NCBI GenBank assembly: GCA_019235995.1
Contig: JAFAJV010000001.1
Coordinates: 1-42,682 of the forward strand
Origin: Vulcanimicrobiota bacterium
Lineage (GTDB): Bacteria > Vulcanimicrobiota > Vulcanimicrobiia > Vulcanimicrobiales > Vulcanimicrobiaceae
Length of the DNA stretch: 42,682 bases
Direction of reading: 5' to 3'
A program made the position numbers and the translations under genes. Each line of letters starts with the position of its first letter. Within the stretch, counting starts at the first letter, position 1. Shown one piece after another: positions 2-1,418 of this stretch. Below the pieces are notes generated by a model. That model worked only from the letters and a program-made list of their open reading frames with translations. It did no database searches and was not told where the DNA came from.

Positions 2-448
2 TTCGAGCCGCATGCGCTTCGCGATCAACGAATTCGCGCCGCGCCGAATATGCAGGCCTGGGCCCGCGCGTCGGCCGGCGGCTTTCTGGACGGCGGCACG
101 GTCACGGCTGACGATGAGTTTCTCGCTTTAACGATCGCGGGATCCGAAGGCGTGGTCGCCGTCGAGGCCGTCGACGGCGGCGCAATCGTCGCCACCGGCG
201 CGATGGACGTGCGGGGTGAGTGTTCGGCGCTGTTTGCCGCCTCGACGCTGCCCGGATTCCGCGGTGCCGGTTGGCATTTGGCCCTGATCCGCGATCGCAT
301 CGCGCGTGCCCGCGATGCGGGCGCGCGCTTCATGCGCGCGACCGCTCGCCCCGGCAGCACATCGGAGCGCAACTTTCATCGCTGCGGCTTCACGACATTG
401 TACACCCGCGCGTTGTGGGAGCGAAAACGAGATAAAACCTCAACGTAA
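2..448 (+). CDS. GNAT-family N-acetyltransferase, 5' end cut by the window
   Basis: This is the C-terminal part of a GCN5-related acetyltransferase, which moves an acetyl group from acetyl-CoA to an amine. The frame is open to the window edge, so the ATG at 50 is unlikely to be the real start. The visible part has the end of the fold: a beta strand (ALFAASTLPGF), then RGAGWHLALIRDRI, which fits the CoA-phosphate loop and following helix (consensus R/Q-x-x-G-x-G/A), then a late NFHRCGF segment typical of the last strand of GNAT proteins. The CoA loop is a little degenerate (RGAGWH). Substrate cannot be told. It ends 50 bp before the HNH gene on the same strand. Family is clear from motif layout, function unknown. 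Confidence 0.75.
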   Translation, partial: FEPHALRDQRIRAAPNMQAWARASAGGFLDGGTVTADDEFLALTIAGSEGVVAVEAVDGGAIVATGAMDVRGECSALFAASTLPGFRGAGWHLALIRDRIARARDAGARFMRATARPGSTSERNFHRCGFTTLYTRALWERKRDKTST

Positions 449-498: not shown

Positions 499-1005
499 AT
501 GATCCAAAAGACGTTTCGCGGATGGTGCACGAATGGCTGCGGAAACGGTATAAAGAAGGGCGCGAGCAAATATTGTTCCTTTTCATGTCAGCGTCAGCAC
601 GACTTGAAGCGGCGCGTACAACTTATCGAGGCCGGCACGTATCAGTGTCGCGGCGGCAATACGTTCTTGCGTCGCTACCTCATACGACGTCTCGGTGAAA
701 AATGCGCCGCCTGCGGATGGAACGAGCGTCACCTGAAAACTGGTAAGGTCCCAATCGAGCTCGAGCATATCGACGGCAACTGGCAAAATAACCGTCTCCA
801 AAATCTAACTCTGCTTTGTCCGAACTGCCATTCGCTAACGCCAACCTTTCGAGGGCTCAACCGCGGACGCGGCAGAGCCTACCGGCTCGGCGGCCGTGAC
901 AATCCAATCGAACCTAAGAAAAGCGTACGTCTGCCGGTTCGTTCTAACGCGAGAAAGGTTTCGCGGATACCGTTGATGCAACTGGAACTGACGCTGCCGA
1001 CGTAG
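499..1005 (+). CDS. HNH endonuclease with N-terminal Cys4 motif
   Basis: 168 aa. Residues 69-112 carry a zinc-stabilised HNH nuclease core: C69-x2-C72, the metal/catalytic segment ELEHIDGN (H90), N102 in the RLQNLTLLC stretch, C107-x2-C110, then H111. HNH enzymes of this type cut DNA using one metal ion and occur in phages, homing elements and defence loci. Residues 10-30 hold a second Cys4 group (C10, C14, C26, C30) that may bind zinc and DNA. The gene is visibly richer in A+T than its neighbours, which suggests transfer. Its last codons run 10 bp into the tRNA gene, and the stop TAG is bases 8-10 of the tRNA. No Shine-Dalgarno sequence is visible. Nuclease assignment is firm; biological role is unknown. 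Confidence 0.85.
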   Translation: MIQKTFRGWCTNGCGNGIKKGASKYCSFSCQRQHDLKRRVQLIEAGTYQCRGGNTFLRRYLIRRLGEKCAACGWNERHLKTGKVPIELEHIDGNWQNNRLQNLTLLCPNCHSLTPTFRGLNRGRGRAYRLGGRDNPIEPKKSVRLPVRSNARKVSRIPLMQLELTLPT

Positions 1006-1078
1006 CCAAGCGGTTGAAGGCGCCGCCCTTGTAAAGCGGACCCGAAAGGGCACGTGGGTTCGAATCCCACCGTCGGCT
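996..1078 (+). tRNA. tRNA with UGU (Thr) anticodon and long variable arm
   Basis: The acceptor stem is GCCGACG (996-1002) paired with CGTCGGC (1071-1077), with discriminator T at 1078 and no encoded CCA. The D stem is GCC/GGC, the T arm is GTGGG-TTCGAAT-CCCAC. The anticodon loop reads CTTGTAA, giving anticodon TGT, which decodes ACA (threonine). The anticodon stem has four good pairs and a C31-A39 mismatch. Between anticodon and T stems there are 14 bases containing a CCC-GAAA-GGG hairpin, so this is a class II tRNA; bacterial tRNA-Thr is normally class I. The acceptor resembles bacterial tRNA-Thr, while the D loop and variable arm look Ser/Leu-like. Identity in charging is therefore uncertain. 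Confidence 0.85.
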
Positions 1079-1091
1079 CATCTTTTAAGTC

Positions 1092-1418
1092 ATGCAAACC
1101 GTTAATCCAAAGTGGAAATCCGGCGGACTCGTGCTCGTGTGCGAGCGCTGCTTCAAGGAGCGGATACCCGAAGAGGATCCCGACGTCGCCGCGCGCATCG
1201 GCGATTTCCACCTGCGCAACTGGCTCAAGGAACGCCTCAAGGCCGACGGCCGCTGGGGCGCGATTCGCGCCATCAGCACGAGTTGCATGGACGTGTGCGC
1301 GCGCGGCCGCGTCACGGTCTGCATCGAGCCGCATGACGCCGAGCCGGCCGTGTTCGTCGTCGACCCCATCGAGGAGCGTGAGGACGTTTATCGCGCGGTC
1401 GTCGAGATGCTTGGCTGA
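1092..1418 (+). CDS. small four-cysteine protein, possible thioredoxin-like [2Fe-2S] protein
   Basis: 108 aa, soluble, no signal peptide. Two cysteine pairs are spaced C17-x2-C20 and C65-x3-C69 (in SCMDVCARG), followed by a hydrophobic strand (VTVCI). Paired cysteines about 45 residues apart resemble thioredoxin-fold [2Fe-2S] ferredoxins and the small predicted metal-binding proteins related to them; I cannot assign a named family firmly. The ATG at 1092 is only 13 bases after the tRNA, so the gene is probably read through from the tRNA promoter. Its 3' end overlaps the convergent racemase gene by 31 bp. An electron-transfer or metal-binding role is inferred from the cysteines alone. Confidence 0.6.
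   Translation: MQTVNPKWKSGGLVLVCERCFKERIPEEDPDVAARIGDFHLRNWLKERLKADGRWGAIRAISTSCMDVCARGRVTVCIEPHDAEPAVFVVDPIEEREDVYRAVVEMLG

Follow-up and report, generated by a model that had tools for sequence, protein, structure and literature searches.

The long-armed (class II) shape is normally reserved for serine, leucine and tyrosine tRNAs. The question raised by this locus is therefore how a tRNA with the threonine anticodon UGU comes to have such a shape, and which amino acid it delivers. The window (the whole stretch of DNA analysed, 42,682 nt) belongs to the genome of a soil bacterium of Candidatus Eremiobacterota, which comprises 2.61 Mb in 154 contigs and is 95.7 % complete. The answer that we consider likely is that it encodes a functional tRNA-Thr(UGU), charged with threonine and the sole one found in the genome, whose body, of class II form, represents one of the alleles that have repeatedly been exchanged at this locus.

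The original prediction of a class II tRNA with a UGU anticodon is confirmed by two programs in agreement, with ARAGORN calling tRNA-Thr(tgt) at 996–1079 of the window, and Rfam returning RF00005 (E 1.3e-10) at 996–1078 as the only RNA family match in the window. The anticodon sits in a loop of 7 nt, the T arm is normal and the acceptor comprises 7 bp (Table 1). The D arm of class II type and the variable region of 14 nt with its CCC-GAAA-GGG stem are likewise present as described; a variable region of more than 10 nt that forms a stem–loop is what marks a class II tRNA, and it stands here in place of the usual class I body of tRNA-Thr, with its variable region of 4–5 nt, a length that is customary for tRNA-Thr(UGU) but does not define the isoacceptor. 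The acceptor had been termed Thr-like, and it does match the class I tRNA-Thr of the genome in its 5′ strand and U73: it displays the G1–C72, C2–G71 and U73 of the Thr acceptor end in this lineage, is the same as that of tRNA-Thr(CGU), and differs from that of tRNA-Thr(GGU) by one pair. The two features previously flagged as oddities, U73 and the C31–A39 mismatch in the anticodon stem, both exist but are minor, as U73 is normal for the lineage, occurring likewise in tRNA-Thr(GGU) and tRNA-Thr(CGU), the remaining Thr tRNAs of the genome, and the mismatch is private to the window species, with 7 of 7 aligned relatives being paired there.

Table 1. Features of the tRNA-Thr(UGU) locus, in window positions
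Feature	Position	Strand	Support
GNAT-type acetyltransferase gene, left flank of locus	50..448	+	
Free-standing HNH endonuclease gene	499..1005	+	PHROG HNH endonuclease, E 3.4e-18
Class II tRNA-Thr(UGU), 83 nt, no encoded CCA	996..1078	+	ARAGORN; Rfam, 59.9 bits
Acceptor stem 5′ strand GCCGACG, identical in the genome's tRNA-Thr(CGU)	996..1002	+	
D arm, class II type: 3-bp stem GCC/GGC and 11-nt loop	1005..1021	+	
Anticodon UGU, ACA reader	1030..1032	+	
Variable region, 14 nt, A-CCC-GAAA-GGG-CAC	1040..1053	+	
GNRA-capped 3-bp variable stem	1041-1043/1048-1050	+	compensatory changes in 3/3 pairs
Acceptor 3′ strand CGTCGGC and discriminator U73 (1078)	1071..1078	+	
Conserved gene for a 108-aa protein, right flank in relatives of either class	1092..1418	+	

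With regard to the distribution of this form, the earlier statement that known bacterial tRNA-Thr are class I holds for the papers searched but not for sequence collections, where class II tRNA-Thr is common in the family of the window, in phages and in a single clade of Kiritimatiellae. When GTDB genomes were scanned with a sequence pattern, many from Candidatus Eremiobacterota (WPS-2) proved to encode very similar tRNAs, neighboured by genes for tRNA-Tyr, tRNA-Gly and tRNA-Thr(GGU); the same tRNA genes are present in genomes assigned to the genus of the window organism. Amongst 99 tRNA-Thr(UGU) sequences compared (class II being a variable region of at least 10 nt, and G102 and G103 being left out as repeats of the class II sequence of G101), 34 are class II and 63 are class I, with 2 falling between the classes. 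Family f1 alone contains 33 class II, 45 class I and 2 in-between sequences, and all phylum members outside families f1 and f2 with a real match are class I. Most class II arms form stems of 2–6 bp, usually with a GNRA cap, and are varied in sequence (including CCC/GGG, CGC/GCG, GGC/GCC, GAC/GTC, CTG/CAG, TGC/GCA and GTGTCA/TGGCAC). Stemless variable regions of 6, 7 and 11 nt, mostly on similar D arms, bridge the lengths of the two classes in five genomes, G091, G112 and G116, as well as G024 and G036, both of which have 11 nt.

The two classes are intermingled on the phylogeny of these genomes. The ThrRS tree, with 23 genomes, requires about nine class changes, at least five of them forced by well-supported branches, and the RpoB tree, with 29 genomes, also requires about nine, at least seven being forced; no rpoB gene was found for the window genome itself. 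Shuffling the class labels gives just as much clustering as is observed. On the ThrRS tree, the window genome groups with the class I genome G013 as its sister (support 100/99), and the two ThrRS are 94.4 % identical over 479 aa, so the tRNA has switched class whilst the synthetase has hardly changed. A second cross-class pair, G107 (class I) and G108 (class II), is separated by RpoB branches of just 0.007 and 0.008.

The surroundings of the tRNA are shared across the classes. In G013 the gene order is the same as in the window, running from the acetyltransferase through the HNH gene, tRNA-Thr(UGU) and the 108-aa protein to a racemase and a kelch protein. The gene for the 108-aa protein, for which there is no Pfam or PHROG match, adjoins the tRNA in many genomes of either class, and an HNH gene lies directly upstream of the tRNA at many alleles, again of either class. 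In the window, the TAG stop codon of the HNH gene falls within the tRNA (tRNA nt 8–10), and the Pfam HNH_3 match of its product lies below the cut-off; the motif EHIDG...N...CPNCH is kept in intact copies of the gene, several copies in relatives being broken. Comparison of the DNA of G108 and G107 reveals flanks that are ~85 % identical, a fall to roughly 45–77 % along the HNH gene and 5′ two thirds of the tRNA (37–71 % when scored as the HNH gene plus tRNA nt 8–57), and a recovery to ~85 % from the T arm onwards, with 86 % at the tRNA 3′ end. The window and G013 follow suit, with 73–77 % in the left flank, 53–68 % in the HNH gene and 47 % in tRNA nt 8–57, rising to 86 % for the T arm plus the flank to its right. 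Similarly, the flanking proteins of the window are closest to those of G013 (83 and 88 %), and its HNH protein is 69 % identical to those of G014 and G005, vs 48–54 % for the sister. The pattern of divergence fits the exchange of a cassette that ends inside the tRNA, much as a free-standing homing endonuclease would be expected to bring about. Divergence of the HNH region is, however, also seen in pairs that are both class I (G003/G016 and G014/G005), so the gene may simply evolve fast; furthermore, an HNH neighbour was undetected at several class II alleles (e.g. G025, G029 and G030), and hence the HNH gene cannot be the sole route. Related HNH genes adjoin tRNA-Gln(CTG) on the same strand, both in the window genome (C104, L025:1278-1532) and in G010 (L235:11933-12133), so that this type of endonuclease favours tRNA loci.

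In the explanation that we prefer, an ordinary ThrRS would charge the tRNA by reading its Thr acceptor end and anticodon, tolerating the long variable arm, and the locus would have switched repeatedly from one class of allele to the other and back. Each swap would probably be a gene conversion whose tract takes in the upstream HNH gene and the first two thirds of the tRNA, counted from its 5′ end, and crosses over within the conserved T arm and acceptor. Replacement of the body would probably be helped by the HNH element, through a putative homing activity, and perhaps by phage copies; the donors would likely be other bacteria, and perhaps large phages with the same class II tRNA-Thr(UGU). A broader proposition, which we put forward tentatively, is that the structural class of a tRNA can be exchanged, with HNH homing and phage class II genes repeatedly converting an essential tRNA-Thr in both directions under an unchanged ThrRS, perhaps as an escape from tRNA-cutting nucleases.

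The best surviving alternative is that the long arm grew in place within a class I tRNA-Thr(UGU), through small insertions and D-arm changes and with no foreign donors. The D-arm type GGCTCAGCGGCNACAGC and its near variants carry variable regions of 5, 6, 7, 11 and 15 nt, a series that suggests growth in place occurs as well, and the tRNA-Thr(UGU) of the Bacillota MAG ZC3RG07 (L114) and of a Blackburnbacteria genome (L083) combine class I-type D arms with long hairpin variable arms, making them possible intermediates or independent gains. Set against this, the closest cross-class pair, G107 and G108, differs in the whole body rather than by an insert, and the D arm of the window tRNA does not resemble the one found in the class I allele of its sister G013, leaving growth in place a doubtful account of the locus as a whole.

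For the exchange of alleles, potential sources exist beyond the phylum. The GTDB scan revealed class II forms with a GCCG acceptor in a Kiritimatiellae/Lentisphaerae clade, mostly from animal-gut genomes, and in Cytophagales/Hymenobacter; such forms were also present in single genomes of Betaproteobacteria, Rhodospirillales, Thermoleophilia, Bacillota and Blackburnbacteria. In samples of Verrucomicrobiota and Bacteroidota with the GCCG-type pattern, class II tRNA-Thr was confined to the starting genomes, which makes it rare in these groups. Three archaeal matches were discarded, having no call or ambiguous anticodons and looking intron-containing, as was an Acidimicrobiaceae match that proved to be an assembly repeat with N. 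Of 81 matching stretches in IMG/VR, 80 loci were read, comprising 77 class II tRNA-Thr(UGU), each on its own viral contig, one tRNA-Tyr and two without a tRNA. Amongst the matches listed, class I forms (>120) outnumber class II, and 20 forms are intermediate between the classes; most viral class II tRNA-Thr(UGU) reside within phage tRNA arrays. An isolated phage, Sinorhizobium phage Phosso, carries a class II tRNA-Thr(UGU) annotated merely as tRNA-Thr. One Kiritimatiellae form differs little by eye from one phage form (L310), a likeness that suggests exchange between the two. A direct phage origin of the window allele was looked for without support emerging: its nearest relatives are bacterial and no phage tRNA is closer. 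Three viral contigs (L249, L269 and L315) harbour HNH genes related to that of the window, at most ~400 bases downstream of a class II tRNA-Thr(UGU).

As to what might drive the swapping, tRNA-cutting nucleases of defence systems or toxins could be responsible, with a changed variable arm allowing escape from a nuclease that recognises it, a notion that is compatible with repeated allele exchange. Septu and retron-Eco7 cleave Escherichia coli tRNA-Tyr in the variable loop, and the tRNA-Tyr of phage T5 is resistant owing to its own variable loop (PMC13096335). Large phages, moreover, bear long-armed tRNAs for several class I amino acids: within six of their tRNA arrays (L239, L271, L281, L300, L312 and L315), tRNAs with long variable arms were seen for Asn, Ile, Arg, Gly, Lys, Met, Cys and Pro, besides Thr, although these were picked by a simple length rule and some may be misfolds. 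Such nucleases would account for a drive but not for the exchange itself, and we regard them as an unlikely driver.

Far less probable is a Ser-type tRNA that reads ACA and is charged wholly or partly by SerRS, rendering the codon ambiguous, as the original prediction had envisaged. The long variable arm would agree with this, as would a body that is 80 % like some tRNA-Ser(UGA) of related families (56/70 positions). The acceptor end, however, is that of tRNA-Thr, with U73 and GCCGACG, rather than a Ser acceptor stem with G73, the usual Ser discriminator; the tRNA-Ser of the genome itself have GGAGAGG/A acceptors. As an aside, tRNA-Ser(UGA) of this phylum seems to be without G73, having C there in the window genome (L037) and U in relatives (L052, L053 and L073), and the remaining Ser tRNAs of the genome carry G73. 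When the window genome was compared with G013 (28 orthologue pairs, a small sample; G010 gave too few orthologues), its ACA codons aligned to Thr in 11/18 cases and to Ser in 1/18, and the Ser codons TCA, TCC, TCG, TCT and AGC aligned to Ser in 78–91 %, the rare AGT excepted. Because ACA aligns with Thr, decoding as Ser is unlikely, with low-level mischarging a possibility at most; ACA is also rare in these genes, as had been expected, at 1.88 per 1000 codons, and the window tRNA is the sole one found to read it. Only one ThrRS is present in the genome, its gene being split across two contigs (L190 and L193). The ThrRS of the lineage displays editing, catalytic and anticodon domains, and a TGS domain had no Pfam match in that of G007 (L171). 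In G013, moreover, the near-identical ThrRS is accompanied by a class I allele of tRNA-Thr(UGU) in the corresponding chromosomal place, which further counters a Ser-type reading. What is borne out instead is the other half of the prediction, a true tRNA-Thr of unusual form, given the Thr acceptor, U73 and the alignment of ACA with Thr.

The copy number of the gene and the conservation of its fold bear on whether it functions at all. Rfam provides 43 tRNA matches in the window genome, and ARAGORN reads 41 distinct tRNAs, amongst which the Thr tRNAs are CGU and GGU, both class I, and the class II UGU of the window. No second tRNA-Thr(UGU), of class I or otherwise, was found by Rfam and ARAGORN in this 95.7 %-complete genome. 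A further copy hidden in an assembly gap would be unusual, since 100 of the 101 matched genomes of the phylum scan (two of which, G114 and G144, look like chance matches) have a single tRNA-Thr(UGU) match, whether class I or class II; in G074, the sole genome with two matches, the second sequence is dubious. Across eight diverged relatives, 99 % of helix cells are paired, vs 64 % in shuffles, and 10/13 helix pairs, including 3/3 in the variable stem, display two-sided changes, with 0/500 shuffles matching the observed pairing and covariation. Compensatory changes occur in the D, anticodon and variable stems. To judge from these alignments, the class II structure is kept by selection, and not by drift of an inserted segment. 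Least probable of all is a decayed or mobile-element copy without cellular function, an option left open at the outset that might draw on the abutting HNH gene, the C31–A39 mismatch and the lack of a sigma-70-like promoter in a scan of 400–1500 (such scans miss other promoter types), but which fails because the genome scan found no class I tRNA-Thr(UGU), and which is also countered by the helices maintained through compensatory change and by a chromosomal place identical to that of the class I allele in relatives. On sequence grounds, the window tRNA is very probably a genuine and functional tRNA-Thr(UGU) of class II form, and would be both expressed and charged with threonine.

Searches of the accessible literature turned up no account of a bacterial tRNA-Thr of class II. 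Textbooks treat tRNA classes as fixed by amino acid; here, the sole tRNA found for a sense codon differs in class between sisters with ThrRS hardly altered, and basic tRNA architecture is seemingly exchangeable while the decoding meaning stays. As the class changes under a near-constant ThrRS, how well ThrRS, EF-Tu and the ribosome tolerate the long arm can be tested directly, with natural pairs of class I and class II alleles available for assay. A mobile endonuclease and phages emerge as possible agents of tRNA replacement. For annotation, a warning is also warranted, in that isotype models leaning on class may mislabel such genes.

In comparison with known systems, the window tRNA shares its anticodon, acceptor, U73 and chromosomal locus with class I relatives amongst the bacterial tRNA-Thr, and departs from class I tRNA-Thr in its class II D arm and a 14-nt stem–loop variable region vs 5 nt. 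It resembles tRNA-Ser, tRNA-Leu and bacterial tRNA-Tyr in having a D stem of 3 bp and a variable arm that is both long and structured, but unlike these class II tRNAs has a Thr anticodon, a Thr acceptor, and U73 in place of G73 (Ser) or A73 (Leu and Tyr). Allo-tRNAs possess 8/4 or 9/3 acceptor branches, from which the window tRNA differs by a normal 7/5 branch. It is nonetheless akin to allo-tRNAs and other non-canonical bacterial tRNAs in its unusual build and metagenome-derived source (PMC7609411). The nev-tRNAs of nematodes are class II tRNAs with class I anticodons, and thus similarly join a long variable arm to the anticodon of a class I amino acid (PMC4033280); these are, however, extra, Leu/Ser-like tRNAs of animals, whereas the window tRNA is the sole one found for its codon, has a Thr acceptor, and belongs to a form of bacteria and phages. 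Finally, the locus recalls SegB of phage T4, a free-standing homing endonuclease that drives inheritance of the phage tRNA region, in that an endonuclease gene adjoins tRNA genes and the neighbouring tRNA region is, here probably, exchanged (PMC2988022), although SegB is a phage-borne GIY-YIG enzyme, whilst the window gene is of the HNH type, resides on a bacterial chromosome, and has a putative role in homing.
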